Below, in pieces: positions 1,926-52,792 of a stretch of 64,000 nt of DNA. The notes under the pieces were generated by a model, which ran no database searches, was not told the origin of the DNA, and saw nothing but the letters and a program-made list of their open reading frames with translations. The stretch is from Rhodothermia bacterium (GTDB taxonomy: Bacteria; Bacteroidota; Rhodothermia; Rhodothermales; UBA2364): NCBI GenBank assembly GCA_017303715.1, contig JAFLBZ010000020.1:1-64000 (forward strand), given 5' to 3'. The translations under genes and the position numbers were made by a program. Position 1 is the stretch's first letter, and each line of letters opens with the position of its first letter.

Positions 1926-3257
1926 TTACCGTGAGGTATGGCGGCGGAGGTGATCGCTTATAAAACGTGCGCTTGATTTTGGCGTGCGTTTTTGGGTCTC
2001 GAAGTCCACATGAACGATGCCAAATCGTTTACTATATCCAAAGCCCCATTCAAAGTTATCTAAAAGTGACCAAGCATAATAGCCACAAACATCTGCACCT
2101 TTTTGGATGGCTGTTTCGATGGCGGCAATGTGCTGCTTGAAGTATGCAACACGAAGTGGGTCTGACTGGATTTCCTCTGTTGCTACGGGCGGATCATAGT
2201 AAGCTGCACCGTTTTCAGTGATCCAAATGGGTGGCTTTCTATATCTTTCGGTAACCCAGCGTATGGTATCGCTAAGTGCAGGCGCATACACCTCCCAGCC
2301 CATTTCTGTATAGGGATGGCGAGCGTGAATCACTTTTTTTGTACCGAACAAAGCTTCGGAAGAATCGGCTACAGTTAGGCCACGTGCATAGAAATTTATC
2401 CCCAGAAAATCAGGCGTCGTATGGATGAACTTCATGTCCTCGGCATTCGGTTCTTGCCAAGCATGGCCATAAAATGCTTTAATTTCGTCGGGAAATGCCC
2501 CTAAATATACCGGATCCAAATACTGCCTATTCATGTAGGCATCCATTTTTTTGGCGGCTTCGAGGTCTTCTGGTCGGGATGTAGCCGGAACTTTTGGCTC
2601 TAAGTTTACAACCAAGCCAATTTGGTGATAGCAGCAGGATCGGTACAATTGAATCGCTTTCCCACTGGCACGCAATAAGTTTTGCACAACCTTTGTCGTT
2701 TCATATTTGTTTCGATGTCCGGGAGCATGGTTGCCCACCAGATACCCTTCGTGTGCCACCACCCACGGCTCATTTAAGGTTGACCAAAGTGGGACTCGGT
2801 CTCCCAAAGCCTTAAACATCACTTCGGCGTAGTCACAAAACCAATCTGCTACATCGGCATTTACCCAACCACCGCGTTCATCTAATGCTTGTGGGAGATC
2901 CCAATGATATAGCGTAATATTCGGTATAATGCCTCGTTCTAATAAGCCATCGGTGAGTTTGCGATAGAAGTCCAAGCCTTTTTGGTTCACCGCACCGACG
3001 CCATTGGGCAAGACACGGCTCCAAGCAATGCTAAACCGATAAGATTGGAAGCCGAGCGCTTGGATCAGGTGTAAATCCTCTTCCCAGCGGTGATAATGAT
3101 CACAAGCCACATCTCCATGTTGGTTCTGCCAAATATTTCCGGGCATTCTAGAAAAGGTGTCCCAAATACTAAGTCCCTTGCCATGACCCTCGGCAGCACC
3201 CTCAATCTGATACGCTGAAGTAGCACAACCCCAGACAAATCCTTTCTTATAAACCAC
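1926..3257 (-). CDS. GH1 beta-glucosidase, cytoplasmic
   Basis: This is a glycoside hydrolase family 1 enzyme of typical length (443 aa) with no signal peptide, so it acts in the cytoplasm. The N-terminus FVWGCATSAYQIEG is the classic GH1 start. The acid/base glutamate is E163 in TLNEPW and the nucleophile is E348 in ITENGAA. The late WSLLDNFEW motif lines the substrate site. It is the last gene of the 25-kb block and follows the GH94 phosphorylase by 57 bp. I infer that it hydrolyses sophorose or other short beta-glucosides left after phosphorolysis. GH1 enzymes are often broad, so linkage preference cannot be read from the sequence. Confidence 0.95.
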   Translation of the reverse strand: MVYKKGFVWGCATSAYQIEGAAEGHGKGLSIWDTFSRMPGNIWQNQHGDVACDHYHRWEEDLHLIQALGFQSYRFSIAWSRVLPNGVGAVNQKGLDFYRKLTDGLLERGIIPNITLYHWDLPQALDERGGWVNADVADWFCDYAEVMFKALGDRVPLWSTLNEPWVVAHEGYLVGNHAPGHRNKYETTKVVQNLLRASGKAIQLYRSCCYHQIGLVVNLEPKVPATSRPEDLEAAKKMDAYMNRQYLDPVYLGAFPDEIKAFYGHAWQEPNAEDMKFIHTTPDFLGINFYARGLTVADSSEALFGTKKVIHARHPYTEMGWEVYAPALSDTIRWVTERYRKPPIWITENGAAYYDPPVATEEIQSDPLRVAYFKQHIAAIETAIQKGADVCGYYAWSLLDNFEWGFGYSKRFGIVHVDFETQKRTPKSSARFISDHLRRHTSR

Positions 3258-6808: not shown

Positions 6809-9800
6809 TTATTGGCGAATGACGACGGTTGCGGGTAAGGCATAAACTTTAATCTGGTGCGTATTTTCCACCAAACGTTTGCCGTTCACCCAAACTTCTC
6901 GAATGGGTTTAGGGTCGGGGATATGGATTTCCAAGCCGCCTTTGGGGATATTTAGGTTACCAGAAAGACGGAAAGTGGTGGTATTCTTTCGTGTGGATGC
7001 CGTAAAACTCAAGGCTCCCCACCACGTTCCAAGATTTTTGATGGCTACCCCGCTTCCCTTTTTAAGCCATGCGGGTAAAAGTCCCGCCCCAACCACCAAA
7101 GTTTCGTCATCTTCCCGCTCATAAGCGAAAAAGGATAAACTCGCACGGATAAAGTCTGATCCGACCCAAGTATGGGGCATATCGCCGATAAATTTCGGGG
7201 TTTTCGGATCATGCCAGATCACCTCGGCCCAATGTCGCCACACTGATGGGCGTTGATGGCTGAAGAAGAAGTGGCTCATGGCGTGGGCGCGGTCTTTCCA
7301 ACCAAGGCGAAGGAGAGCGCCGACGGTACGCCATTCGTAAGGTGTATAGTTTTCCCATGGTTTTGCACCAGATTTGCGGTTTTCAGCAAACTGCCAATAG
7401 CGTTCAAAGGTTTTTTCGAGCGCACCATTGGGAAAACGGGCCATCTCCTCGGCTGGGGTAATGCCGACAGTTGTGGAGGTGGGGTCAAAATCACCCAATT
7501 CAACACATCCGGGCAGGTAGTCTATTTGGTGAAGTGCCATTGTAGCACGGATTGCCGCATGAACATCTTGAGTAAAAACTTCCCTAAATTGGGTAAAAGT
7601 CGCTGCTGTTTGCTGTTCTCCGAGGGCTTCGGCCAAATAAACCGCATCTTTATAGCCACGAATGGCGAAAAAATAGTCCCAGAACGAATGGCGCGGATGA
7701 TCGGAATATCCTTCGTGGCTGATGGATTCGGGCAGGAGACCAAAGTACGGTTTCTTTTCAGCGGTCTGGTATTCTGGTGTCCGCCGTTGGTGCCGCAATT
7801 CCTCCATATAGCTTACGGCCAATTTCACCTTGGGCCAGACCTTTCGTAGCGTCTCAAGATCGTGTGTAAACCTGAAATATTCCGCAACGAGATAAATAAA
7901 TTGGCCATGACTATCGTTTTCCGGAACCGGATCTGCACCTCGCGCATCCACACAGCAAGGTACTTTCCCATTGTCAAAGAGATAGTTTGCATACCACAAA
8001 AGATAATCACGTACTGTATCGGCGTGTCCCAGGCGCAACAAAGCCGCCGAAGTCAGCGATCCATCCCGTATCCAACTCCGTTCATAACTACGCGAACCGG
8101 GTTGTATGGCATTTTGATCTTGGTTGACCAAAATATACCCAAGGTTTGCCTTAATTGACTGGGTTAGGGCTTCTTCTCCCGGAACCACAAGGTCAAAGCG
8201 CTCCGTTAAGTTTTGCCATTCAGCACGAGCTTGTTCAAGTGTGCCTTTTTGGTTTCCGTAGAACAAGGTCACGGTTTTGGACTGGCCAGCTTCCAATCGG
8301 AATCTAAAGCGCATGGCACCGGATGCAAAGCCGAGAGAATCGGTTGTGGTTTGGGTAATTGGATAAGTTCTATTTGCCATTTGGGTCATCAAATCACCTT
8401 CTTCTATACGTGTTGTCCACACCTGATCAGGCATAGGTTGCGTGGAGAAAACGTTTTGGTTTACTGCAAAGGGTTTGACCAAAGAAAGGGTCTTGATAGG
8501 TGCAAAACCACCGGGGGTATTCAAGAATTGAGATGTTGGATTAACCTGAAAAGGGCGAAGCGCAAGGAATAGATGGCCATTTTTTCGTGTTTTCCCTTGA
8601 TTTTGCAGGTGATACCGCACGGCAAAGCCCCCATTTACTGCCCAAGCCGTGATTTTCAGCACTACGGCTCCCATTTTTCGGGTGACATTAGGAATGGGCA
8701 AATAGCCTTTTTCGAGGGAAGGTTCGTGTGTGGCCTCTGCCCATGTCCAAAGTTTGTTGTCCATCCAGACGAAGGGTTCAAAGGTAGGGCCACCTTTTTC
8801 CAATTCCACCGCACCATGTTCCCCCATTAGACCTTCGTTGGCGTGGTGCGGCGTGCCAAAAACCGTCCAATAGGTGAGTTCTTTGGAGAGATATTGTGGG
8901 TAATGTCCTTTGGGCGCAGCGGCTGCAAGATGCTCAAAAAATGCAGAAGGCGAGGACGAGAATGTAAGCGGCTCTATTTGAAGTTGCGACAAGGCACATT
9001 CGGACAAACAGGTTAGGCGTAAAAAACGGGCTTCTGTTTCGGGCAGATACAAGGCGTCGTAGCCGCCATCGCCCTTTTGGATGTCTATTTGTTTCTGCCA
9101 ATATTGCCCATCATCGGAAGTCATTATATGGTATTGTTGTCCACCTTTTTTCCAGTTAAGGGTTATCCCGCCAAATTCCCGGAACCGTTCAAAATCCATG
9201 GTAAGTGATTGTGGTTTGGAAGGATCGGGTTCCCAAACGCTGGCTTGGCTTAGCAGACCATTTACTTTTCCAGAAGTCGTTGTTATTACAGGTATTTGTG
9301 TATAAGGTATATCGGGCGGCCTCGGCTGAATTCGGATGTCATCCAACCAAATGGTTCCCTTCCCTCCTTTCTCGGCAACGATGGTAAACTCAAAAGCAGT
9401 TAGTTTTTCCAAAGGCCGTTTGGGTTCTGGCCCCCAAGCAAAACTGATTTTCCGGCGCTTAATGCGTTGTTCAGTCCATTTCTGAGGCATTTTAAACGAG
9501 GGTTGAACAAGCCACCAGATATTGCCTTCTTGTTGGAGTTTAATTTCTAACTTATTTACGGGCGACTCGCCGCGCAATCGGTAGTTCAGTACAAAATTTT
9601 CCGGTAAAGCCACCAGAACGGGCTTTACAGCCGCTGCCCAGCCGCCTTTGCCATTAAAATTATAGTCTAAACGGATGGCGGGGCCATTCTCCCCTTGTTC
9701 TTGGGAAATCTTCAAATCCACGCCCTCGGTTGGGGAAGATTGCCATTTATCGGCCTGTGAACCGTCTTCTACGATTAGCACATCCGATTGTGCGAACACA

Positions 9801-9850
9801 TAAGGGCTTAAAACAAACCCCATCAAGCACCATAAAGCCTTTATTTTCAT
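6809..9850 (-). CDS. Secreted (alpha/alpha)6-barrel glycosidase-like protein with N-terminal binding domains
   Basis: The protein has 1013 aa and a signal peptide at 1-20. Residues about 25-175 form a carbohydrate-binding-like beta-sandwich ending in GTIWLDDIRI. Residues about 190-295 look like an F5/8 (discoidin) domain. Then comes a beta-rich linker region, and residues about 555-910 form a helical barrel with RSWIRDG (591-597), ENDSHGQF (644-651) and ESISHEGYSDHPRHSFWD (708-725). The WIRDG and acidic motifs resemble GH15/GH63-type barrels, but I cannot place it in a numbered family. No lipobox is seen, so it is probably periplasmic. It starts with an ATGA overlap with the permease gene upstream and is followed by the GH94 gene after 23 bp. 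Its substrate is therefore probably a beta-1,2-gluco-oligosaccharide or a decorated form. Confidence 0.75.
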   Translation of the reverse strand: MKIKALWCLMGFVLSPYVFAQSDVLIVEDGSQADKWQSSPTEGVDLKISQEQGENGPAIRLDYNFNGKGGWAAAVKPVLVALPENFVLNYRLRGESPVNKLEIKLQQEGNIWWLVQPSFKMPQKWTEQRIKRRKISFAWGPEPKRPLEKLTAFEFTIVAEKGGKGTIWLDDIRIQPRPPDIPYTQIPVITTTSGKVNGLLSQASVWEPDPSKPQSLTMDFERFREFGGITLNWKKGGQQYHIMTSDDGQYWQKQIDIQKGDGGYDALYLPETEARFLRLTCLSECALSQLQIEPLTFSSSPSAFFEHLAAAAPKGHYPQYLSKELTYWTVFGTPHHANEGLMGEHGAVELEKGGPTFEPFVWMDNKLWTWAEATHEPSLEKGYLPIPNVTRKMGAVVLKITAWAVNGGFAVRYHLQNQGKTRKNGHLFLALRPFQVNPTSQFLNTPGGFAPIKTLSLVKPFAVNQNVFSTQPMPDQVWTTRIEEGDLMTQMANRTYPITQTTTDSLGFASGAMRFRFRLEAGQSKTVTLFYGNQKGTLEQARAEWQNLTERFDLVVPGEEALTQSIKANLGYILVNQDQNAIQPGSRSYERSWIRDGSLTSAALLRLGHADTVRDYLLWYANYLFDNGKVPCCVDARGADPVPENDSHGQFIYLVAEYFRFTHDLETLRKVWPKVKLAVSYMEELRHQRRTPEYQTAEKKPYFGLLPESISHEGYSDHPRHSFWDYFFAIRGYKDAVYLAEALGEQQTAATFTQFREVFTQDVHAAIRATMALHQIDYLPGCVELGDFDPTSTTVGITPAEEMARFPNGALEKTFERYWQFAENRKSGAKPWENYTPYEWRTVGALLRLGWKDRAHAMSHFFFSHQRPSVWRHWAEVIWHDPKTPKFIGDMPHTWVGSDFIRASLSFFAYEREDDETLVVGAGLLPAWLKKGSGVAIKNLGTWWGALSFTASTRKNTTTFRLSGNLNIPKGGLEIHIPDPKPIREVWVNGKRLVENTHQIKVYALPATVVIRQ

Positions 9851-10668
9851 CCTTTTACACCTCCCATCATAATACCTTTAATGTAATGCTTTTGTAAGAC
9901 CAAGAATACCATAAGGACAGGTAAAACGGTCATCACCGAACCCGCCATCATCATTTCGTTGTCCTGAACATGTTCTCGTGAAAGTGCCGCCAAAGCTACT
10001 GGAAGCGTATAATTCCGGTCGTCGGTCATTAAAATGAGGGGCCACATAAAATCATTCCAGGTGCCCATAAACGTAAAAAGTGCTAAGGTCACTAAAATGG
10101 GACGTAAAAGCGGTAAGATGACCGACCAAAACGTGCGAAATTCCCCTGCTCCGTCCATTCTTGCGGCTTCTATAAGCTCATTTGGAACCGATAGGGCGTA
10201 TTGTCGGATGAGAAAGATGCCAAAAATACTGGCCAATCCGGGAATCATGACCCCCAAATAGGTGTTCACCAAACCCATGTATTTCATCATTAAAAACAGC
10301 GGAAGCATAGCTACCTGTGCCGGAATAACCAATGCGCCCATAAGGGTTTTAAAGATGCGCTCTTTACCCGGAATGGGTAATTTTGCAAACGCATAACCTG
10401 CCATGGCATTCAATAGCAGTGAAAACAGGGTGATAGAAGTGGCTAACAGGAAACTATTCAGAAAATACCGCCCCATTTCCATCCGCTCAAAAAGGGTTTG
10501 GTATTGCTCAAGCGTTGGTGAACTGGGTACGAGTGGAGGCGGATATGTGCCAGCTGCACCCGTTTGCATGAACGAAACGGAGACCATCCAAACCAATGGA
10601 AAGGCAGTGATGAGTGCAACTATCCACAAACTGCCATTGACCAAAAAAGAAGTAAATCGCTGACTCAT
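9847..10668 (-). CDS. Sugar ABC transporter permease, MalG type
   Basis: This is a 273-aa inner-membrane permease with six predicted membrane segments. The ATG at 10668 was chosen because MSQRFTSFLVNGSLWIVALITA starts directly before the first membrane helix, whereas the longer reading frame adds a polar stretch overlapping the upstream gene. The EAA loop that contacts the ATPase is EAARMDGAGEFRTFWSVILP. The C-terminus (YIKGIMMGGVKG) is characteristic of MalG-like permeases. It partners the MalF-type permease 20 bp upstream and the binding lipoprotein before that. No ATPase gene is nearby, so a shared MsmK/UgpC-type ATPase elsewhere is presumably used. The inferred substrate is a beta-1,2-gluco-oligosaccharide. 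Confidence 0.93.
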   Translation of the reverse strand: MSQRFTSFLVNGSLWIVALITAFPLVWMVSVSFMQTGAAGTYPPPLVPSSPTLEQYQTLFERMEMGRYFLNSFLLATSITLFSLLLNAMAGYAFAKLPIPGKERIFKTLMGALVIPAQVAMLPLFLMMKYMGLVNTYLGVMIPGLASIFGIFLIRQYALSVPNELIEAARMDGAGEFRTFWSVILPLLRPILVTLALFTFMGTWNDFMWPLILMTDDRNYTLPVALAALSREHVQDNEMMMAGSVMTVLPVLMVFLVLQKHYIKGIMMGGVKG

Positions 10669-10688
10669 AAGCTTTTTTTTGGGATGGT

Positions 10689-11588
10689 TTAAGCCGTTGC
10701 ATCCGCTTTTTGTAGGCGCAACTGAACGAGGGTTGCGACCAACATGATCGCAAACAGTACAAAGGCGACAGCGGCGGCATAACCCAAATTCCACCACTTA
10801 AAACCTTGTTCGTACATGAGATACACAATACTCACCGTGCTTTGCAGTGGGCCGCCCAAAGTCATCACATACGGCTCGGCAAACAATTGAAAGTACCCGA
10901 TCATGGTCATCAGACCAACAAACAAAAAAGTAGGGGCGAGCATAGGAACCGTAACATGCCAAAACTGTTGCCAAGCGTTAGCACCATCTATTCGCGCCGA
11001 TTCATAAAGCTCGTCGGGGATGTTTTGAAGTCCCGCAATGAAAATCACCATATTGTATCCAAAACCTTTCCAAACGGCCATCAGGATGATGGCGGGCATC
11101 GCCCAAACGGGGTCGCCGAGCCAATCCACCGGATCAATCCCCAAAAATTGGAGGATGTAATTCAAAAAACCGTATTTGGTGTGGTATAGGTAGCGCCAAA
11201 CAACGGCAACGGCAACAATGGTGGTGACGACTGGGGCAAAGAATATGGTTCTGAATAGGGCCTTAAACCTTACCAATTTGGACTGAAGGAGCAATGCGGT
11301 TCCCAAGGATACCGCTACCGAAAGCGGCCCGCCCACCAAAACAAAATAGAAGGTATTCCATAACGCCTTCCAAAAGTCTTCGGAAACAAAAAGCTCCGTG
11401 TAGTTCCGAAGTCCCACCACCCGAAGATGATTGGGGTTTGCTAATGCGTAGATGTCGAAATCGGTGAAGCTCAGTAAAAACGCCGCCAATACGGGTACAA
11501 AAAAGAATACCACGATCAGCAGAAGCGCGGGAGCGGCAAAAAACCATGCGGCACGAACGGTTCCACGTGGGAGGGTGTATTGGTTCAT
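10689..11588 (-). CDS. Sugar ABC transporter permease, MalF type
   Basis: This is a 299-aa inner-membrane permease. The start at 11588 gives MNQYTLPRGTVRAAWFFAAPALLLI, a normal MalF/UgpA-type N-terminus, and overlaps the stop of the binding-protein gene by an ATGA, a hallmark of coupled translation. The EAA loop is ELYESARIDGANAWQQFWHV. GGPLQSTVSIVYLMYEQGF and the last helix match the family. It forms the transmembrane channel with the MalG-type partner just downstream. Confidence 0.93.
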   Translation of the reverse strand: MNQYTLPRGTVRAAWFFAAPALLLIVVFFFVPVLAAFLLSFTDFDIYALANPNHLRVVGLRNYTELFVSEDFWKALWNTFYFVLVGGPLSVAVSLGTALLLQSKLVRFKALFRTIFFAPVVTTIVAVAVVWRYLYHTKYGFLNYILQFLGIDPVDWLGDPVWAMPAIILMAVWKGFGYNMVIFIAGLQNIPDELYESARIDGANAWQQFWHVTVPMLAPTFLFVGLMTMIGYFQLFAEPYVMTLGGPLQSTVSIVYLMYEQGFKWWNLGYAAAVAFVLFAIMLVATLVQLRLQKADATA

Positions 11589-12853
11589 GGCGTGATTTTG
11601 TTTTGTGAGCGCATCCAACGGCGCTTTTCGAGAATGCGGTCGGTTGTGGCATCCAAGTCTCTTAGGGCGGCATCCATGCTTTTCATCCCGCTCAAGATCA
11701 CTTCGGTGGTTAGGCGGAGTTCCGTAGCAATCCGCTCCCATTCCGGTACTTTTGGGGTTGGCCGCGTAAATTGAAGCTGCTGTTGGAAAGCCTGCATATA
11801 GGGATCTATTGCCAACTTGGGGTCTTTCCATGCCGAATAACGCGGCGGCAAATCGCCCGTTAATTCGTTAAACCGTATTTGAACCTCTGGACGAGACAGG
11901 TATTCTAAAAAGGCCCACGCTTCTTGTTTGTGTTTTGAACTCTGGAAGATGACCAAACTGGAACCGCCAGCCATAGAATAGGCGGGTTTTCCGGCTTCCG
12001 GAGCAGGCATAGGAGCTGTTCCCCAAGCCGATTGCAGCGACTTAGGGAGACGTGTTTTGAACTCGCTGACGTTCCAAGGGCCGGTGATGTAGAACGAAAA
12101 ATAGCCCCGTTCAAATTCTTGCCAAACATTGGAGATTTCTTGATTCCCGACACTTGGAGAAAGTTTTTTTCGGAATAAGTCTAAATAAAAGCCATATGCT
12201 TTTTTAAAGTCCGCACTTTGGAAATTCCCCCGTGTGCCCTGCTCTCGGAGCATCTCACTTGGTTGTTGTAGGGCCAAAATGATGGGCGGCTCAAACTCAT
12301 TTAAAGGCAATAAAACGGCAAATTTATCCGGCCCCACCAATTGCTTAATCTTCATAAGGACGGTTTGCCACTCTTGCCAAGTGGTCGGCGGTTGCGAAAA
12401 GCCCGCCTTCTGAAGCAAATCTTTTCGGTAAAAAAGAAGCCGTGTATCCACATACCAAGGAATCCCATACGTCCGGTCTTCAAAAACATTCGAGGCCCAA
12501 ATACCAGAAAAATAATCATTCTCTTGAATAACCTTACTTCTGGAAACCCACGGCGAAAGGTCTTCGAGCGCACCAAGCACAGTAAATTCTGGCATCCACG
12601 TATTTCCCAACTGGCACAGATCGGGAAGGGATTCGCCCGCAAATCCGGTCAAGAGTTTCTCATGGGCGGCAGTCCAAGGCAAGGCTTGTACACGTACCTT
12701 GATGTTTGGATGGGTACGCTCAAATTCTGGAACCAATTCTCCGAGGACTTCGCCTTCCTTTCCCATTGCCCAAATCCGAATTTCCGTTCTGGAATCCGTC
12801 TGGGTGGTACATCCGGCCCAAAAAGCCAGTATGAGGAAGAAGAAGCGGGTCAT
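11585..12853 (-). CDS. ABC sugar-binding lipoprotein (extracellular solute-binding family 1)
   Basis: A binding protein of the MalE/UgpB type (422 aa). I prefer the ATG at 12853 (MTRFFFLILAFWAGC) over 12877, because it begins the signal peptide directly and leaves an 8-bp gap after the GH144 gene instead of an overlap. The cysteine in FWAGC is the likely lipid-anchored residue 15. Family features include IRIWAMGKEGEVL at the mature N-terminus, GIPWYVDTRLLFYRKDLL, and GGSSLVIFQSSKHKQEAWAFLEYL near the C-terminus. It delivers oligosaccharides to the two permeases. Specificity for sophoro-oligosaccharides is inferred from context only. Confidence 0.9.
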   Translation of the reverse strand: MTRFFFLILAFWAGCTTQTDSRTEIRIWAMGKEGEVLGELVPEFERTHPNIKVRVQALPWTAAHEKLLTGFAGESLPDLCQLGNTWMPEFTVLGALEDLSPWVSRSKVIQENDYFSGIWASNVFEDRTYGIPWYVDTRLLFYRKDLLQKAGFSQPPTTWQEWQTVLMKIKQLVGPDKFAVLLPLNEFEPPIILALQQPSEMLREQGTRGNFQSADFKKAYGFYLDLFRKKLSPSVGNQEISNVWQEFERGYFSFYITGPWNVSEFKTRLPKSLQSAWGTAPMPAPEAGKPAYSMAGGSSLVIFQSSKHKQEAWAFLEYLSRPEVQIRFNELTGDLPPRYSAWKDPKLAIDPYMQAFQQQLQFTRPTPKVPEWERIATELRLTTEVILSGMKSMDAALRDLDATTDRILEKRRWMRSQNKITP

Positions 12854-12860
12854 GTTGGGT

Positions 12861-14954
12861 TTATGGTTTTTGTTCAATCCACTGTTTTAGGGCTGCCATT
12901 ACACGCTCAAAAAACAAAGCGTGGGCGCTATCAGTAAGGTGTATCTGGTCTCCGGCATCGTATTTGGGATTAATACGCCCGTCTTCGAGGGCTATTTCGC
13001 TCCAAAAATCAATGACAAAGTTTCCGTAAAGGGCTTTTAAACGGTCTCGGACTTGCATGAGTTCAGCGCGTTTTTCGCCGCTCAGGTTTCGTGGCTGGGT
13101 GGTGGTGATCCAAACCGGAATCCCTTTTTCTTGTGCGGGTGCGATGATGGTGGCAAAATTCTGAATTTGCTCCTCGAAGCCATATCCGGCGGTGGTGTCA
13201 TTGGAAGGCAAGTTAATGATAATGGCCTCTGGATTGAGGCTCAAGGCTTTAGTGATATTCCGCTCTACATCTGGCTGTGGCCGGCTCGCCATCATCGGAC
13301 TGCCGGTTGGCAACAAGTGAAAAGTGGAATAGGCGCTCCGTGCGATGTTAAAAACATGGATTTTTCCGGTGGGTTCAAGCACGCCCCGAAGCCGATTTAC
13401 CCAAGTGTTTTCCCAAACTTTCGGCCCAACGCCTTCAGCAGTCGAGGAACCTAATACCACAATGCGTTTGTATTTCGGCGAGGTCTCTACGTCGGCCATG
13501 CGTTTTGGCATCCAAGTACTATAGATTTTCGCAGGTTGAGGCGCATCTGACAACCACCCGCCCGTAAATCCTGCCCGCTCAAGTCCTTTCCGGATGTATG
13601 GATTTTTCTGAAGGGTTTTCCAAATCAAGCCAGTACGATAATTTTCGATCATCACCAAAATGGGGCCTTGGTCTATGCCCAGATAATCGGTATCAAACCA
13701 GCCTTTTTCTGGAATAACGCGGCCATGCTGTGGCTTTATATCGTTAAACGTAAATGAAGGATTAAACGCATCTAAAAAGCCGTATTTTCCATAAAGCGGC
13801 TCGCCATAACGGGAGGCCATTGCTTTCAGAGCCGGAATAGTGATTTCTGGTGCAAATGGAACGGATCCGCCAACGGCAGTAGGTGAGAGTGTTCCATCAT
13901 CCAAGACGTATTCGTTACTGGCCCCGCGTGGTGCATACGTTTGGAAACGCCTCATTTTGCCATTGAATTCCCGCTCAATATCCAAAGGCCCGTCACAGGC
14001 GGTTAGTCCCCAAATCTCGGCGCTATAGTCTTTCCACCCATTCGGATTTGCAATGGCATAGGCATGTTGGCTTAGGGTGGCACGACGCGAGTTCTCGAAG
14101 TAATCTATGCCTTTGGAGCGCATAAACGCATCTTGGATTCCTTTCATTGGGAGGTACATCTGGGTATATTGATGCCCAAACAGCGGCGAAAAGTTAACGT
14201 GTTCCTGCCCAAAGTATGATCCCCAACGATAGGTTGCGGTATAAACCTGCCAAGCGTCGTCTCTAAAGGGGAACGTGGGCGATCCCAAGCCCAAGATATA
14301 AGGCATCATGGCCTCGTCGTAGCCCTTGTAGTCGTGCGTGTGTTTTCCGGATTCTGGATACCAGCCCATTGCCATCAGCCCACCGCGAACGTGCATCCAA
14401 TCCCACTCCACCCGTCGGTAGAGGGAGTCCGCATAAGCGCGAATATCCCGCTCTTGGGCGTCATTCTGGTCATAATAACTTTGGGTAAACAAGACGCCCG
14501 CCATTAGCCAAGCGGTATCTATACTGGAAAGTTCGACATTTCGGAATCGTTCTCCCGTTTTCATGTCGAGGAAGTGGTAATAGAAACCTTTATAGCCGGT
14601 TTGCTTCAGTCCTGCAGGGCCTTGCGGAGATTTCCACAAGAATCTAAGCGTGGTTAATGTCCTATCAACGGCTTGTTTGCGTGAAATCCAACCGCGTTCG
14701 GCACCAATAGGATACGCGGTAAGGCCAAATCCAATGGCTGCTACGCTCGAAAAGGACTCTGTAGGCCAACGATCTGGAACGAGACCGTTTTCTGGATTGG
14801 TGGTTTCCCAAAACCAGTTAAAGGTTCGTTGTTGTACGTCGTTTAAAAAAGCCTCATCTCCATTTTGAGGTTTTTGGACGTTTGGTGGTGGCTTGGGCGC
14901 ACAGCCAGTCCAAAGGAGGAGAAGCAAAAGTAATCCACTTCTTAGCGTCATCAT
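12861..14954 (-). CDS. GH144-type endo-beta-1,2-glucanase fused to an SGNH hydrolase, lipoprotein
   Basis: The protein has 697 aa. Residues 1-18 are a lipoprotein signal (LLLLWTGC, Cys18). Residues about 34-465 are a glucoamylase-like (alpha/alpha)6 domain of the type found in GH144 endo-beta-1,2-glucanases, with FNWFWETTNPENGLVPDR (45-62), YKGFYYHFLD (121-130), ELSSIDTAWLMAG (141-153), YPESGK (199-204) and GIDQGPILVMIENYRTGLIW (427-446). Residues about 495-690 are an SGNH/GDSL hydrolase: block I GSS with Ser504, block III-like SNDT with Asn585, and the block V pair Asp669/His672 in DQIH. The second domain suggests removal of an ester substituent from the glucan, which is inference. It lies 11 bp after the other GH144 gene and 8 bp before the binding-protein gene. 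Confidence 0.88.
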   Translation of the reverse strand: MMTLRSGLLLLLLLWTGCAPKPPPNVQKPQNGDEAFLNDVQQRTFNWFWETTNPENGLVPDRWPTESFSSVAAIGFGLTAYPIGAERGWISRKQAVDRTLTTLRFLWKSPQGPAGLKQTGYKGFYYHFLDMKTGERFRNVELSSIDTAWLMAGVLFTQSYYDQNDAQERDIRAYADSLYRRVEWDWMHVRGGLMAMGWYPESGKHTHDYKGYDEAMMPYILGLGSPTFPFRDDAWQVYTATYRWGSYFGQEHVNFSPLFGHQYTQMYLPMKGIQDAFMRSKGIDYFENSRRATLSQHAYAIANPNGWKDYSAEIWGLTACDGPLDIEREFNGKMRRFQTYAPRGASNEYVLDDGTLSPTAVGGSVPFAPEITIPALKAMASRYGEPLYGKYGFLDAFNPSFTFNDIKPQHGRVIPEKGWFDTDYLGIDQGPILVMIENYRTGLIWKTLQKNPYIRKGLERAGFTGGWLSDAPQPAKIYSTWMPKRMADVETSPKYKRIVVLGSSTAEGVGPKVWENTWVNRLRGVLEPTGKIHVFNIARSAYSTFHLLPTGSPMMASRPQPDVERNITKALSLNPEAIIINLPSNDTTAGYGFEEQIQNFATIIAPAQEKGIPVWITTTQPRNLSGEKRAELMQVRDRLKALYGNFVIDFWSEIALEDGRINPKYDAGDQIHLTDSAHALFFERVMAALKQWIEQKP

Positions 14955-14965
14955 GTTGTTGTAAA

Positions 14966-16843
14966 TTAAGGACTTTCTTTATGTCTAATAACTTTAATCA
15001 CCTTCACGGTTTCATTCAGGGTAATCCGTACAAAATACGCCCCGTCCGGCCATTCCCCACCCGCTAATCGCCATGATTGCAGACCACTTTCGAGAAACTT
15101 CTGTTCTTGATGTTTGGCACGGCCTAAAACATCAAAGACTTCTAAGGTGGCAAGTCCACTGTGCGGAAACGCCGTATCTATTTGTAGTTCGTCGCTAAAG
15201 GGATTGGGATAACTTTGGATCAAGGTGGACGAATTTGGAGGAATCTCGGCCTCATTTGCTACACCGGGGCCTTTGAATCCAGCCCGCCGAAGCCCTCTTT
15301 GTATGACCTCGCTTTTCATCATGTATTTCCAGATGAGACCCGTTCGGTGGTTTTCGATCATCAGCAAAATAGGGCCTTGATCAATGCCGATATAGTCGGT
15401 CGCGAACCAGTTTTTGGTGGGATTAAAAGCATCTTTCAGGCCATATGCGCCCCATAAATTCAAGCAATAACGGTTATACATCTCCCGAAGTGCCGCCAAC
15501 GATTCGTTCGGGGTGAAGGGAAAAGATCCACCGGGAGCTGTTGGGTTTAGCGTCCCATCATCGCCCCAATCGGGAGGAGCGCCACGTGCTTTATACCCGC
15601 CGGGCACATCCGAAGCCGTAATCCCCCAGAGGTTTGGGCCATAATCGGTAAAACCTTTCGGATTCGCGATACAATAGGCCCGTTGAGCAAGGGTAGCTCT
15701 TTTGGCGTTTTCAAAATAATCGGAACCACGTGCATTCATATAGCTATCTTTAATCCCCCTAAAGTCAATAAAAATATGGGAATATTGGTGTCCGAAGAGT
15801 GGTGGAAAGATCACAAAAGACTGCCCATAATGGCTTTGCCACGTATAAGTGGACGTCCAAGCGCTCCAAGACGTTGCCGGAAGCGGGTACGTAGGCGAAC
15901 CCAGCCCAATGATGTACAAGATGGATGCTTCGCTAAACCCAGCCCAATCGTAGGGCAAAAGGCCAGATTCGGGCTTCCAGCCATGAGAAACACGTGGCGC
16001 ACGTGGTGAAGCCCATTTCCAATCCGCTCGGTCATTGATCTTTGTAGCCAAGTCTCGGATCTCGGTTTCGGCAGCATCGTTGCCAGAAAAGTATTCCTTT
16101 GCGAACAAAATGCCGCCCAGCAAAAGTGCAGTGTCTATCGTAGAAAGTTCGCTACTCCATTCGCGATATCCGCCTGTCATGTTCAAGAAGTGGTAGTAAA
16201 ACCCTTTATATCCGGTACTATTTGAAGGCTCATCGGTTGGGACATCTGCAAAAAAGCGCAAGGTGTTTAAGACCCGCTGGCGTCCGGCTTCACGGGTGAT
16301 CCATCCGCGCTCAATGCCCACAGCAATGGCAGGTAAACCAAATCCCACACTGGCTGTACTGGCGTGTGATCCACGTTGGCTCCGGTCTCGGATTAAGCCT
16401 TTTTCGGGATTGGCCTCGTTCCAAAAGAAGTCGAACGCGGTTTGTTGCATCAAATTCAGAAATTCCTCATCGCTCAATTCTTGCGGCGTTACTGCTATTG
16501 GTGTTGATGGCTCCCCCTCGATAAAGCTTGCATTAACTGCCGAGATCTTATAATAATAGGTTTTGTTGTTTTGGAGGCTGTTTTCCACCCAATAGGGCTG
16601 CGTTTGCATCACGGTTGTTCTGGAGGTAAATGGGCCTGTTGCATTGGTGGACCAATAGATATAATAGCCAAAAATGCCTCTCTCGGCGGCTTCCCAACGG
16701 ATAATGGCTGTTTTGTCACCGATTCGCGTTGTTGGGTTGATGGGTGGTAAAGGCCCTGTTTGTGCATATAGAAGCGCTCGTGTATAGCCTAAGCAAGACA
16801 AAACAACCATCAAGAATAGGTATCTGGCACCATTTCTTTTCAT
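14966..16843 (-). CDS. GH144-type endo-beta-1,2-glucanase, T9SS-secreted
   Basis: The protein has 625 aa with an N-terminal signal peptide. A fibronectin type III domain spans about 33-118. The GH144-type domain spans about 125-525, with FDFFWNEANPEKGLIRDRS (137-155), YKGFYYHFL (212-220), ELSTIDTALLLGG (232-244), KPESG (290-294) and GIDQGPILLMIENHRTGLIW (486-505). A T9SS type A sorting domain runs from about 540 (SYPNPFSDELQI) to the end, so the enzyme should be exported across the outer membrane and held at the surface. It shares the catalytic domain with the next gene but not the SGNH module. Together they would supply surface cleavage of long or cyclic beta-1,2-glucan. Confidence 0.9.
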   Translation of the reverse strand: MKRNGARYLFLMVVLSCLGYTRALLYAQTGPLPPINPTTRIGDKTAIIRWEAAERGIFGYYIYWSTNATGPFTSRTTVMQTQPYWVENSLQNNKTYYYKISAVNASFIEGEPSTPIAVTPQELSDEEFLNLMQQTAFDFFWNEANPEKGLIRDRSQRGSHASTASVGFGLPAIAVGIERGWITREAGRQRVLNTLRFFADVPTDEPSNSTGYKGFYYHFLNMTGGYREWSSELSTIDTALLLGGILFAKEYFSGNDAAETEIRDLATKINDRADWKWASPRAPRVSHGWKPESGLLPYDWAGFSEASILYIIGLGSPTYPLPATSWSAWTSTYTWQSHYGQSFVIFPPLFGHQYSHIFIDFRGIKDSYMNARGSDYFENAKRATLAQRAYCIANPKGFTDYGPNLWGITASDVPGGYKARGAPPDWGDDGTLNPTAPGGSFPFTPNESLAALREMYNRYCLNLWGAYGLKDAFNPTKNWFATDYIGIDQGPILLMIENHRTGLIWKYMMKSEVIQRGLRRAGFKGPGVANEAEIPPNSSTLIQSYPNPFSDELQIDTAFPHSGLATLEVFDVLGRAKHQEQKFLESGLQSWRLAGGEWPDGAYFVRITLNETVKVIKVIRHKESP

Positions 16844-16887: not shown

Positions 16888-17889
16888 CTAAAACTCAAAG
16901 GCAAATCCAAACCGTTGGCTACTCCCAAGCCGCCCAAAGTCTGCCCAGCCATAATCAAAGCGGAAGCGATATTGGTCAATCTCATAATGAATGCCCGCAC
17001 CCAAAGTAAGCCCTGTTTCGTGGTCTTGTTGGAACAGGTGTTGGTATCCACCACGAAGAGAAAATGTCTCGAACAAGGTGATTTCCGTCCCAAAACTCAC
17101 GCTTTCGGTGTTGTCGCTTGGGTGATAGGCATTAACGGCAAAGATGGCTTGGGCTTTTTTGCCTAATGAAACGGGATAATCCATCCCAACCCGAAAAAGT
17201 ACAGGCAACTGGTGAGCTTCCGTCACCAATGCGGCGGGGAGACTGGAGTTGTCTCCGTATTTGTCTGGATTTGCATCAAACCGGACGCGCAAGTCTTTGC
17301 CATCAAACTTGCCTTTTGTCCCAAAATTGGACAGGCTCGCTCCTAATTGCGCCCCAAACGGCAATTTATACATCACCCCAAAATCAAGCGCACCTGCTTG
17401 TAAGGCGGAGTTCCAGATGCGCTCGGTCACATATTTGAGGTTTACCCCTGCCGAAAACCGATCGCTTAGTTTCCGGCTGTAGCCCACACTAAGCGCCAAG
17501 TCTTTCACCTGATATTGTTCGCCCGTCCCCAAAGGTTGTTCTACGGTTCTGACGGCAATTTCGCCAGAGTTTAAGGACGTAACACTTACCGAAAGGGCGT
17601 CTGTTTGCCCCAAGCGTAGGTCAGCAGTTGCAAATTGGTGGGAAATTCCAGCCAACCAAGCACCGTGCGAGAACTGAACTGCCGTCCGAGGTTCCCAAGC
17701 CGGCGCTGCTGGATTAAAATAGCCTGATGACGGATCGCCATACGTCGTTACCGAGGCATTTGCCATGCCCATTGCACGGGCACTTGGTTCGATAAGTAAA
17801 AACTGACCGATGGTCGTTCCTGTTTTGCTCTGCGCAAGGGCAAAAGACAGATTCAGGAAAAGTGAAGCTAAAAGTACAAGCGCCTTCAT
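16888..17889 (-). CDS. PorV/PorQ-family outer-membrane barrel protein
   Basis: The protein has 333 aa. The ATG at 17889 starts a good signal peptide (MKALVLLASLFLNLSFALAQ), and two upstream ATGs only add polar residues. The mature N-terminus has GQFLLIEPSARAMGMANAS followed by YFNPAAPAW, the family hallmark of PorV/PorQ (FadL-like barrels). The chain continues in amphipathic strands and ends with aromatic FGFAFEF. PorV-type proteins shuttle T9SS cargo to the surface, and several T9SS-tailed products are encoded next to it. It is probably a locus-specific paralogue rather than the core PorV. Confidence 0.88.
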   Translation of the reverse strand: MKALVLLASLFLNLSFALAQSKTGTTIGQFLLIEPSARAMGMANASVTTYGDPSSGYFNPAAPAWEPRTAVQFSHGAWLAGISHQFATADLRLGQTDALSVSVTSLNSGEIAVRTVEQPLGTGEQYQVKDLALSVGYSRKLSDRFSAGVNLKYVTERIWNSALQAGALDFGVMYKLPFGAQLGASLSNFGTKGKFDGKDLRVRFDANPDKYGDNSSLPAALVTEAHQLPVLFRVGMDYPVSLGKKAQAIFAVNAYHPSDNTESVSFGTEITLFETFSLRGGYQHLFQQDHETGLTLGAGIHYEIDQYRFRFDYGWADFGRLGSSQRFGFAFEF

Positions 17890-17950
17890 ATGTACATGGG
17901 TCATGGCGGTCGGTGACAGCACCAAGCGGCCTCTTGAATAAATCTATTTC

Positions 17951-21216: not shown

Positions 21217-23868
21217 TTACCCTTTCTTAAAAACACCTCTTAGGGTTAATCCAACCTCAATCCTACGTGGTTGCGAGAAACGGCCTGGATTACGAAGTTG
21301 GCTCCGATTTGCTTCCGGTGTTAAGGAATAATACGGGCTTCCGGTATTGGCAAAAACAAAGCCATTTACCGCATGTTCATCCGTCAGGTTAAAGGCTCGG
21401 ACAAACCCCGTTGCGTTCCATTTCCCCAGTTTGAAGTACTTCTCGGCCCGCACATCCAAGAGGAAGAAGTTGGCTTTACGACCCGAATTGGGTTCCAAGT
21501 CCGATCCGAACGTTGAGCCTAATTCCGGTGTAAAGGGCTGACCACTGCCAAATCGCAAAATTGTGGTGAGGTTAAAATTATTGGCCTTAAACCACGTAAG
21601 TGAGCCATTTAAGGTATGGCGTTGATCCCAATTAAAGGCCACCTGACGTGGACGCGGGTCTTCTCCGGCGGCAGCGCGGTTTGCGGTTTCTCGCGGATCG
21701 CTACTATTTCCAACGGCAATTTGCAAGGTATAATCCACCGAGGCATTCAAGCCGGAAGCCGTTCGTTGGTCTAATGAGAGGGTAAAACCACGCACACCGC
21801 CAAAATCCACATTGGTTAATCGGGCATACTCGGCGGCGGTAAAGGTTTGCACAAATTCCACCCCCAGCAAGTCGCGTATGTCTTTATAAAACAAGCTCAA
21901 GTCTAAGCCTAAGTCGCGGTTAAGGGCAGACTTAAAACCAAATTCATATTGGGTGGTAAATTCGGGTTTCAGGTCTGGATTGCCCATCACACCATACGAA
22001 ATTCCACCTGCTTGTAGGTCTTTTAAGACGGAATAATCCGCATTTTGGAAAAGCTGACCCAAGCCGGGCATTTGATAAAAATGACCATAGGAGAAAAAGA
22101 CGGAAGCTCGGTCTAAAATGGGGAAGGAAATGCCTAAACGAGGCGCTAAAGCCAATTTAACCGTGGTGGCTTTAGGCGTAGAGGCTGGCGCACCAGTAAT
22201 GGCATTGGCTGGATTCCTAAGCTCGCTTGGAACCGTTGTTCGTGCATCGAAATATTCTAAACGCACGCCACCACGAATCCGTAAATCGCCCCATTCTACA
22301 CGATCTTGTGCAAAAATAGAACCTTGGATAGGGCTAAAATCGGTGGTTTTGGCTTCGGGTAAATCGGTACGGGGGAGTAAAACCTGCACTCCACCCACAT
22401 TGGTTTCGGCGATAATACCGGGCGCACCAAACGAAATATTGGAGCGCATAAATTCAAATCCCAATTTTAGCAAATGGGCCTTGGTAATCTGATCGGTATA
22501 AGCCCCTTTGGCAACCAAGGCATCGGTGGTTTGGATAAACCGTCCCAGATCAGCACCTTGCACCACTGCACCATCTTCGTAATTGCTGTCGCTTTGTGGC
22601 CGTCCCCAATCTAAGTAAAGAGGGTTCTCTAAGTCCTCAAATAACATATCTTTGTAGTCAAATCTATTTTGTCGGAACGTGAGTTCATAGAAGCGTTTAT
22701 CTGACAAGGTGTGGGTAATGTTCAGACCATGCACAATCGAAAACTGGCGCGGCGTTTTGACGCCCTCCGGATTGAGCCGCCAAGCGTCATTGTAGTATTT
22801 CCGCTTTATCCAGTTGGTAATAGCTTGGTATTCCAATTTGATGTTTTTGAGGGAACGGTTCGAGACCTTCGCCAAAAGATTGGATTCATAAGAGAAATTC
22901 ATCGGAACAACTGCGCCATCGCCCGTCGGGTTAAAAGTGCGCTGTTCCAAGTCCGAGCGGTCAGACGGTAAAAAGCGCCGTTCACCGAATAAATAGCCGT
23001 CGTTGGCCAAATGCTGTCCGCTGACCAAAAAGGTTGTATTGCGGATAAATGGCCCACTCACACTTGCTTGGAGATTTCGCTGGTTTAGCGGGCTAATTTT
23101 GTCTAAATGTGGAAAACGATTGGCTTTGGTATAGGCATTTTCTGCGGTGGAATAATAGCTCCCACCAAACGTTTCAAGATTGACCTCGAAGCGGTCTAAG
23201 TCTCCACTCCGAAGCACGGCATTGACCACGCCGGACATGGCTTGGCCGTATTCAGCATCAAACGTGCCCGAAATAACTTGGACTTCTTGTAGTAAAGATC
23301 GGTCTAATTCTAAGGAAGAACTATTATTGTATGGGTTGTTTACGGAAACACCGTCCACCTGATATTGTACCTCTCCTTGACGTCCTCCCCTAAAGTGCCC
23401 ATCCACCACTCCAGCTTGTAAATTTACGATCTCACCAATGTTTTGAACCGGTAGAACCGCAATGTCTTCTTTAGACAAACTGGTCATGGAACTTGTCTGA
23501 GAAACATCCACAATGGGGCGCTCTGCAACTACTGTAACCTCGCCACCTTGTAAGGTTTCCTCTCTTAATGTGGCATTCTGCGTGGTTGTTTGGTTGGAAT
23601 TTACCCGAACGCCGGAAATGATTAAGGCTTGATAGCCAATGTAGCTAAACCGTACCGAGTAGGTTCCAGGTGGAATCCTCAAAATCGCAAAGTAACCCTC
23701 GGTATCCGTCACTGCCCCCAATTGTGTGCCGGGCAAAGCCACCGTTACGCCAATTAAGGTGACACCGCTTGCATCGGTGACTTTTCCGGATAATTTACCG
23801 GTTTGGGCAAAAACCATCTGGCCATACAGCACACTGCACAGCAACAAGATCAGACGCAGACCTTTCAT
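21217..23868 (-). CDS. TonB-dependent receptor with carboxypeptidase-like N-terminal domain
   Basis: This is an outer-membrane active transporter of 883 aa. Residues 1-21 are a signal peptide. Residues about 26-108 are a carboxypeptidase-regulatory-like domain (LSGKVTDASGVTLIGVTVAL, TDTEGYFAILRIPPGTYSV). The plug follows (EIVNLQAGVVDGHFRGGR, VQYQVDGVSVNNPY, and DAEYGQAMSGVVNAVL near 200-220), and the remainder is a 22-strand-type barrel. It is somewhat short for a SusC and has no SusD partner. Position within the block suggests import of beta-1,2-gluco-oligosaccharides into the periplasm, powered by TonB-ExbBD encoded elsewhere. Confidence 0.93.
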   Translation of the reverse strand: MKGLRLILLLCSVLYGQMVFAQTGKLSGKVTDASGVTLIGVTVALPGTQLGAVTDTEGYFAILRIPPGTYSVRFSYIGYQALIISGVRVNSNQTTTQNATLREETLQGGEVTVVAERPIVDVSQTSSMTSLSKEDIAVLPVQNIGEIVNLQAGVVDGHFRGGRQGEVQYQVDGVSVNNPYNNSSSLELDRSLLQEVQVISGTFDAEYGQAMSGVVNAVLRSGDLDRFEVNLETFGGSYYSTAENAYTKANRFPHLDKISPLNQRNLQASVSGPFIRNTTFLVSGQHLANDGYLFGERRFLPSDRSDLEQRTFNPTGDGAVVPMNFSYESNLLAKVSNRSLKNIKLEYQAITNWIKRKYYNDAWRLNPEGVKTPRQFSIVHGLNITHTLSDKRFYELTFRQNRFDYKDMLFEDLENPLYLDWGRPQSDSNYEDGAVVQGADLGRFIQTTDALVAKGAYTDQITKAHLLKLGFEFMRSNISFGAPGIIAETNVGGVQVLLPRTDLPEAKTTDFSPIQGSIFAQDRVEWGDLRIRGGVRLEYFDARTTVPSELRNPANAITGAPASTPKATTVKLALAPRLGISFPILDRASVFFSYGHFYQMPGLGQLFQNADYSVLKDLQAGGISYGVMGNPDLKPEFTTQYEFGFKSALNRDLGLDLSLFYKDIRDLLGVEFVQTFTAAEYARLTNVDFGGVRGFTLSLDQRTASGLNASVDYTLQIAVGNSSDPRETANRAAAGEDPRPRQVAFNWDQRHTLNGSLTWFKANNFNLTTILRFGSGQPFTPELGSTFGSDLEPNSGRKANFFLLDVRAEKYFKLGKWNATGFVRAFNLTDEHAVNGFVFANTGSPYYSLTPEANRSQLRNPGRFSQPRRIEVGLTLRGVFKKG

Positions 23869-25963: not shown

Positions 25964-26965
25964 TTATTTTTGACCGCAGGACTGCCGGATCACAAGGGAG
26001 GTTGGGAACTTTTCCTGCCGACGGGTGTGGTCGTTTTCTTCTTGTATCGCCATAAGTAAACGCTCCATTGCACGTTGGCCCATCTCGAAAATGGGAACAT
26101 GCACCGAGGTTAAAGGGGGTTCTAAGTATTGACTTGTTGGGATATCGTCAAAGCCCACAATGGCAATATCTTCCGGAACCTTAAGCCCAAGGCCACGCAG
26201 AGCAGCCATTGCCCCGATGGCCATCCCATCGTTCATTGCAAAAATGGCGGTTGGGGGTTCTGGATGACGCATCAGGAACAAGGCTCCTTTATGGCCACTC
26301 GCTTCGTTAAAATCACCTTCGTACCGCAAAACAGGATCGGTTAATCCGGCATCTCGCAAGGCATCTTCATAGCCTCGATAACGTTCTTGGGCCTCATGGT
26401 TGTTGGCGGAACCGGTGATGATGCCAATCTTACGATGGCCAAGACGAGTCAGATGGCGCACAATGGAATATGACCCGCCGTAGTTATCCACGTTGATGGA
26501 GTCGAAGGCATCTCCTTCCACATAACAATTCAGGAGAACAACAGGAAGGGAAGCGGGGAGATTGGTTTGTAAAGAGGCGGCATCAATATCCGGCGACATC
26601 ACCACCAAGCCATCAACACGGCCTTGCATGGCTTGGATCGCTCGTACAATTTCCTTGCGTTCATTATGCGAACTTGACACCAAAAGATGATATCCTCGAT
26701 CTTGGGCTGTTCGGTCTAATCCGCGCAAAATTTCAGAGTAGAAACCGCCATACATGTCGGGCAAAACCACGCCCAAGGTATAGGTTTTTTTGGTCACCAA
26801 ACTCCGGGCTGCACCATTCGAGACAAAATTGAGTTTACGAACCGCAAGTTGAATCACTTCCCGCTTCTGACGGCTCACTGGCCCGCCCGTCAACCACCGA
26901 GAGACCGTTGAGACCGATACCCCAGATTCTTTTGCAACGTCTTTTATTGTAGCAGCCATAACCAT
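25964..26965 (-). CDS. LacI-family transcriptional regulator
   Basis: A standard LacI/GalR regulator (333 aa; the third residue Met at 26959 is an equally good start). The N-terminal helix-turn-helix is [19 protein letters not shown], followed by the hinge helix region [20 protein letters not shown]. The periplasmic-binding-protein-like sensor domain fills the rest ([40 protein letters not shown]). It is the first gene of the 25-kb minus-strand block, with palindromic operators directly upstream, so autoregulation and control of the whole locus by a beta-glucan-derived inducer are likely. The inducer cannot be identified from sequence. Confidence 0.95.
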
Positions 26966-32551: not shown

Positions 32552-32554
32552 GGG

Positions 32555-34978: not shown

Positions 34979-35150
34979 AGGGGTTGGGTAATAGCTTAAA
35001 CAATGGGAAGGTTGCCACAACAAACGTGCCGTCAAGATACAACTAAAATACCTTGATATGAACAAAAAGCGCTTTCTGAAGGCTTTTTCCTAAACAACGT
35101 ATCGCGCAACGCAGGCTACAAGCGGCGGAACAAAGCAACTTTATGCTTTT

Positions 35151-52771: not shown

Positions 52772-52792
52772 CATCCCCAATTGTTGTCTGAT

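Follow-up and report, generated by a model that had tools for sequence, protein, structure and literature searches.

A predicted GH15-like glycosidase family conserved in bacterial β-1,2-glucan loci

A 64,000-nucleotide stretch of DNA from a Rhodothermia bacterium (positions 1 to 64,000 of contig JAFLBZ010000020.1, assembly GCA_017303715.1; hereafter the window) encodes, amongst genes for the use of β-1,2-glucans, a 1013 aa protein designated P0001. Comparison of its sequence with those of its relatives indicates that P0001 is no local curiosity but the representative of a conserved and recurrent family of predicted secreted six-hairpin glycosidases. The family occurs almost only beside genes for β-1,2-glucan use, where it probably supplies a missing breakdown step. 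We consider it very likely that the family is a new one of periplasmic glycosidases, GH15-like and probably anomer-inverting, which act on β-1,2-glucan fragments; new is meant here with respect to the Pfam and NCBIfam models only. The fuller proposal, that this GH15-related, inverting, periplasmic family cuts the α-1,6 bond of the α-1,6-cyclised β-1,2-glucans (CβGα), has in our view a chance that falls only just short of even.

Homologues aligning with most of the length of P0001 are present in 19 of 394 genomes sampled from its phylum, the window's own genome included. All 19 encode a GH144 protein (PF10091), as against 135 of the 394 overall (Fisher p = 6e-10; the test treats genomes as independent, and eight families of the phylum are represented amongst the 19). 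In each of the 19 the GH144 gene lies within a few kb of the homologue, usually together with genes for a binding protein, permeases and GH94. One locus from public genomes ('Bacteroidetes bacterium UBA2364', L002) also carries a homologue, and four more places are on plasmids, in Croceibacterium, Xanthomonas sacchari, Methylosinus and Methylocystis; a scan of viral contigs gave no relative. The Croceibacterium genes are overlapping and in the order TonB receptor–GH144–homologue, and those of X. sacchari are in the order LacI–TonB receptor–GH144–binding protein–two permeases–homologue. In Methylosinus a divergent homologue with no signal peptide stands beside an SOGP-domain protein (PF21958, E 3e-68) and a GH15 protein; at the Methylocystis locus no GH144/SOGP-type neighbour was found. 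A neighbourhood with GH144 or SOGP is conserved across lineages, marking the family as a component of β-1,2-glucan loci. The window itself conforms to this pattern: a first-pass annotation of the DNA had placed P0001 inside a β-1,2-glucan block, and the importer, GH144 and GH94 proteins encoded there do match known β-1,2-glucan proteins.

Two of the plasmid loci have features of their own. In the X. sacchari R1 plasmid record the homologue (L051:20001-23017) is split over three frames and has no listed gene, and is either a broken gene or a sequencing error. The Methylosinus sp. C49 plasmid (L052:7618-17430) brings together an ATP-binding cassette (ABC) ATP-binding/permease protein, GH15, the SOGP-domain protein (annotated as hypothetical) and the P0001-like protein, and may serve glucan turnover in this methanotroph.

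P0001 is more than a chance reading frame: its homologues align over most of its length, share 27-73% of its residues and leave over 70 columns invariant. Mean column identity in the 22-sequence alignment is 44%, and the invariant columns are densest in the barrel. No characterised homologue was found in the literature covered, most subscription journals lying outside it.

The barrel of P0001 is covered by no curated family in Pfam (2025) or NCBIfam (June 2026), the libraries used for its assignment, and neither library links it with confidence to a characterised family whose substrate is unrelated; the first-pass annotation could not place the protein in a known glycoside hydrolase (GH) family, and for the curated families searched this holds. 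What the libraries offer are sub-threshold matches to six-hairpin glycosidases (GDE_C and Bac_rhamnosid6H in Pfam, the GH15-type amylase model oligosac_amyl in NCBIfam), GDE_C scoring 15.7 bits against a cut-off of 21 and the GH78 model Bac_rhamnosid6H 14.6 bits against 24.5. Bac_rhamnosid6H is also the commonest Pfam match to the homologues' barrels (14 of 22, best E 2.4e-7). The GH15 model Glyco_hydro_15 gives no match to P0001 at E 0.1, and matches nine of the 22 homologues (best E 8e-4). There is no match of P0001 to PF10091 or to the catalytic and supersandwich models of GH94. Since the curated cut-offs are not reached, we reject an assignment of P0001 to GH15, GH78, GH94 or GH144.

Profile–profile comparison with HHalign places the barrel closest to GH15 (94.8% probability), then to GH78 (93.3%) and GDE_C (92.2%), with 0.8% for GH94 and 0.2% for GH144. 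The whole catalytic module gives 96.2% for GH15 and 59% for GH94, and over barrel and module together the ranges are 94.8-96.2% for GH15, 91.6-93.3% for GH78 and 92-93% for the GH133-type GDE_C. Unrelated profiles (solute-binding protein, permease, PorV) gave 0-0.4% as controls; in the same test, GH15 compared with GH78 gave only 40% and with GDE_C 11%. The GH15–P0001 alignment spans ~375 columns at ~18% identity, and a second comparison, using a smaller GH15 alignment, returned 94.7% (E 6e-8). A GH15 profile was used because a phmmer search of the PDB with one GH15 protein gave no match. Searching the PDB with the single P0001 sequence gave no match either; the family profile matches strongly only CBM32-type modules there (best E 1.3e-15), its barrel matches, to 8bou, 2okx and the isomaltose glucohydrolase KfIG, being weak. 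The (α/α)6-type barrel proposed at first pass thus stands as a six-hairpin class by profile, the structural check being an AlphaFold model from two sequences (window P0001 and L002) of low confidence (predicted local distance difference test, pLDDT, 41).

The same alignments pair E713 with the WE glutamate of GH15 and E876 with its base glutamate. When the GH15 profile is aligned to KfIG, the base falls at Glu335, D596 at Asp56 and Y589 at Tyr48. The GH15 acid column falls at KfIG position 178, with a chain offset of 20, which we take to be the KfIG general acid. Published work describes the roles of Tyr48, Asp56 and Glu335 and gives the general acid only by its location in the α5-α6 loop (PMC12446779). 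Y589, D596, E713 and E876 are invariant in all 22 homologues, down to 27% identity, and the family shows no loss of its predicted catalytic acids. The seven-residue spacing of Y589 and D596 matches that in TtGA and AgGD. E708 (LPESISHEGY) was considered as general acid and rejected in favour of E713, being A or P in four of the 22.

Compared with GH15 as a whole (glucoamylase, glucodextranase, KfIG, trehalase), P0001 shares the six-hairpin barrel by profile, the WxRD motif and the best profile match, and the Tyr, the Asp, the general acid Glu and the general base Glu all map to its invariant residues. It differs in being missed by the Pfam model, in its low identity, in its binding domains and in its genomic setting, GH15 belonging to α-glucan rather than β-1,2-glucan loci. 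Its predicted active site is therefore GH15-like, yet by curated criteria it is not a GH15 member. This likeness, which the first-pass annotation missed, points to an α-glucosidic bond: GH15 comprises enzymes acting on α-glucosides, and its base lies on the β face, suited to α-bonds (PMC12446779). By analogy the mechanism would probably be anomer-inverting; dextran dextrinase, a GH15 homologue, is retaining, and mechanism is not readable from sequence alone (PMC12446779).

A more distant clade of six-hairpin-like proteins (L021-L023, L025, L026, L030 and L032), mostly of 780-870 aa, has 22-26% identity to P0001, and its E713 and E876 motif regions look similar by eye. The L023 gene adjoins glycosyltransferase-like and inositol-monophosphatase-like genes.

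The gene itself (Table 1) is a genuine open reading frame (ORF) with an ATG start and no internal stops on the minus strand, a strand that had earlier been left unspecified; the plus-strand frame at 6809-9850 has many stops and is not open. All three motifs picked out at first pass are found in the translation, WIRDG at 593-597, ENDSHGQF at 644-651 and ESISHEGYSDH at 708-718. The start codon shares bases with the stop codon that ends the permease gene upstream (ATGA), and a GGGAGG-like ribosome site lies ~10 bases 5' of it. Given this overlap and the good ribosome site, translational coupling to the permease gene is plausible; of the coupling to the importer claimed earlier, the overlap and the ribosome site are observed and the coupling itself is read from the overlap. 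The GH94 gene begins 23 bp past the P0001 stop.

The N-terminus of P0001 (MKIKALWCLMGFVLSPYVFA, followed by Q) resembles a Sec signal peptide by eye and is of a type common to most homologues. By Pfam there is no type IX secretion tail in P0001, unlike the second GH144 protein of the block, and we accordingly infer a periplasmic location. The two N-terminal binding-type domains reported at first pass are borne out. The F5/8 type C domain exceeds the Pfam cut-off (E 3.8e-8), and the CBM11/CBM4-type domain before it is matched by the family profile to PDB 1v0a (E 1.7e-4), with CBM_4_9 matches in four homologues and CBM_11 matches in three. The rest of the chain (residues ~300-1013) divides into a β-sandwich, the helical six-hairpin region and further β structure towards the C-terminus.

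In the pathway that we propose, the outer GH144 enzymes would cut β-1,2-glucans and the pieces would enter the periplasm, where the two N-terminal domains of P0001 may bind them. E713 would protonate the glycosidic oxygen and E876 activate a water molecule, giving inversion at one hydrolysed bond, after which the ABC importer and the cytosolic GH94 and GH1 enzymes would finish degradation. The bond would most likely be α-glucosidic, GH15 being a family that acts on α-glucosides, and the leading candidate would be the α-1,6 bond of CβGα, the known α-bond in the pathway. CβGα, with its single α-1,6 bond, is a product of Xanthomonas, Ralstonia and Cereibacter, and often bears succinyl or acetyl groups (PMC11842490); such acylation would fit well with the GDSL domain to which GH144 is fused in the window, a circumstantial point. 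An exo β-glucosidase did not hydrolyse the α-1,6-cyclised ring, and β-specific enzymes should not cleave its α-1,6 bond. The chain from GH15-likeness to CβGα cleavage is coherent, if circumstantial. We put forward an α-glucosidic substrate bond of this kind only tentatively, as somewhat below an even chance, and regard it as unlikely that P0001 founds a new GH family that is the first to cleave the α-1,6 bond of CβGα.

Several considerations weigh against CβGα as the substrate. The P0001 sequence names no bond, and its six-hairpin relatives act on varied sugars; the AlphaFold model, at its pLDDT of 41, lends the fold no structural backing. GH15 members described in the literature are mostly exo-acting and opening an intact ring is endo-action, a conflict that exo-action on already opened fragments would avoid. 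Some ABC-type loci (L098, L100, L108, L109) have no P0001, suggesting that its step is dispensable or done otherwise, and the frequent presence of GH3 in P0001-less loci would also fit a β-specific role for P0001. The first-pass annotation had P0001 as a secreted (α/α)6-barrel glycosidase candidate that perhaps trims cyclic, branched or substituted glucans; its candidacy and paired acids hold, and either such trimming or some other exo-action would fit the evidence.

The chief rival is that P0001 is itself an exo-enzyme on β-1,2 bonds, a β-1,2-glucosidase or a sophorose-releasing enzyme, occupying the slot of the periplasmic GH3 β-glucosidase of other β-1,2-glucan loci. Every linkage of P0001 is to β-1,2-glucan genes. 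GH3 is missing from all 17 P0001 loci taken from the phylum sample, but is encoded in 10 of 16 GH144 loci without P0001 (p = 9e-5; the 16 were hand-picked from GH144 matches rather than drawn at random, and some loci are incomplete, making absences uncertain). GH3 is a different family, seldom shares loci with P0001 and may fill its step elsewhere; at some P0001 loci, such as L034, no recognised β-glucosidase gene lies in ~20 kb. Against this, Croceibacterium has GH3 and the P0001 homologue together, GH2 is present in 10 of the 17 P0001 loci and could serve as β-glucosidase, and most P0001 loci have a GH1, GH2 or GH35 that could carry out β-1,2 hydrolysis (the window has a GH1). The catalytic pair, moreover, aligns with that of GH15, whose base placement suits α-bonds (PMC12446779), and several of the loci in which GH3 or β-glucosidase seems absent are incomplete. 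We judge an exo-β-1,2 activity for P0001 unlikely, although it is the alternative to be taken most seriously.

The GH3 proteins of GH144 loci without P0001 (L098, L100, L108 and others) look secreted. A GH2 gene of one of two size classes (~690-740 or 890 aa) is repeatedly found next to GH144 and the P0001 homologue (Table 1); as we know of no GH2 enzyme acting on β-1,2-glucan, it is another unassigned candidate. Two GH35 genes in GH144 loci (L045:1264-3405 and L109:6265-8391) are 75% identical to each other, a setting like that of IaSGT, a β-1,2-glucosyltransferase (PMC8861115).

P0001 might instead remove some other decoration or aglycone, such as an α-linked glucose side group or a non-glucose sugar, from β-1,2-glucans or sophorosides. 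GH78 and the GH133-type GDE_C, of the same superfamily, are nearly as close by profile as GH15, members of that superfamily remove many different sugars, and the two binding domains hint at a large or decorated substrate. P0001 lies under every cut-off for these families, and to our knowledge no GH78- or GH133-type substrate occurs in β-1,2-glucan loci. Acyl or phosphodiester groups would require an esterase or a phosphodiesterase, and the part of the literature source available gives as decorations only β-1,6-glucose branches and acyl groups (PMC11842490). A role of this kind seems improbable. It is more improbable still that P0001 serves an unrelated α-glucan (maltose, trehalose) and lies in the block by chance: 3uor, the PDB entry closest to the binding protein, carries no more than the title 'ABC transporter sugar binding protein' and NCBIfam weakly suggests an oligosaccharide amylase, but GH144 linkage holds in 19 of 19 genomes from eight phylum families and in two proteobacterial lineages. 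Least credible of all is that P0001 descends from a glycosidase and now binds without catalysis. Its two binding domains and its as yet predicted activity might suggest this, but the acid, base and subsite residues do not vary across 22 homologues, even at 27% identity.

Amongst the enzymes of the pathway, GH144, GH162, GH189 and GH192-194, which make up the β-1,2-glucanase clan and its relatives, are likewise (α/α)6 barrels, and GH144 is encoded beside P0001. The barrels of P0001 and GH144, the member of this group that the comparison covered, show no profile similarity (0.2%). β-1,2-Glucans, cyclic ones included, are factors in symbiosis and virulence, and genes lying beside GH144 or SOGP have led to many of the enzymes that act on them. 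The P0001 family is amongst the most constant unassigned genes of β-1,2-glucan loci in its phylum, and is found in Proteobacteria too. CβGα is needed by Xanthomonas for infection. Should P0001 cut its α-1,6 bond, the enzyme would be the first specific tool with which to detect and linearise CβGα, and bacteria that eat CβGα would own a dedicated enzyme for the one bond closed to β-specific enzymes. The catalytic residues predicted for P0001 are definite, and its candidate substrates are few and can be prepared.

Table 1. Features of P0001, its gene block and the recurrent GH2 gene (window coordinates unless a locus is named)
Feature	Position	Strand	Basis or remark
P0001, 1013 aa secreted six-hairpin glycosidase candidate	6809..9850	minus	reference sequence of family
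Putative Sec-type signal peptide, residues 1-20	9791..9850	minus	by-eye sequence judgement
First N-terminal binding-type domain, CBM11/CBM4-like, ~residues 24-177	9320..9781	minus	approximate bounds read off the profiles
Second N-terminal binding-type domain, F5/8 type C (CBM32-like), residues 203-283	9002..9244	minus	Pfam and family profile
β-sandwich N-domain of catalytic module, ~residues 310-530	8261..8923	minus	bounds inferred; strands in low-confidence model
(α/α)6 six-hairpin region, GH15-like, ~residues 560-915	7106..8173	minus	profile comparison
Y589, equivalent of GH15 Tyr48 of KfIG	8084..8086	minus	profile alignment
D596 (WIRDG), equivalent of GH15 subsite -1 Asp56 of KfIG	8063..8065	minus	profile alignment
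E713, proposed general acid (GH15 WE position)	7712..7714	minus	profile alignment
E876, proposed general base (equivalent of KfIG Glu335)	7223..7225	minus	profile alignment
GH1 β-glucosidase	1926..3257	minus	Pfam, NCBIfam
GH94 gene downstream of P0001	3315..6785	minus	Pfam; match to cyclic β-1,2-glucan synthase (GH94 region)
ABC sugar permease (MalG type), overlaps P0001 start	9847..10797	minus	Pfam, NCBIfam
ABC sugar permease (MalF/UgpA type)	10689..11831	minus	Pfam, NCBIfam
Sugar-binding protein	11585..12877	minus	PDB relatives 3uor (1e-151), Lin1841 (1.8e-70)
GH144 endo-β-1,2-glucanase fused to GDSL esterase domain	12861..14954	minus	best PDB match XCC2207 (8xul, 7e-175)
GH144 carrying fn3 and a type IX secretion tail	14966..16843	minus	Pfam, NCBIfam
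PorV/PorQ-family outer-membrane protein	16888..17925	minus	Pfam, NCBIfam
TonB-dependent receptor, upstream of block	21217..23868	minus
LacI-family regulator, upstream of block	25964..26965	minus
Recurrent GH2 gene	L033:2694-4775, L036:11413-14106, L038:12080-14314, L041:12104-14764, L043:2933-5587, L046:17600-19666

Within the block, a match at 1.9e-258 ties the GH94 protein to the GH94 part of cyclic β-1,2-glucan synthase. The true starts of both permease genes are probably internal to the listed frames, the homologue of the MalG-type protein having 273 aa and that of the MalF/UgpA-type protein 298 aa. Lin1841, to which the sugar-binding protein is related, is the Sop3-5-binding protein of Listeria (PMC12369401). 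The locus tag XCC2207 occurs in a report on XcSGL, an active GH144 β-1,2-glucanase of X. campestris (PMC12102758); nothing was found on the neighbours of XCC2207 or on glucohexadecaose degradation in the same literature coverage. The GH144–GDSL fusion suggests that deacylation may be coupled to β-1,2-glucan cutting.

Further upstream the window encodes a second sugar ABC importer (31289-35065, minus strand). One of its ORFs, of 836 aa (32555-35065), joins a solute-binding protein to a permease, and a 420 aa permease ORF follows it. A 3712 aa ORF on the plus strand (52781-63919) extends nearly to the window end.

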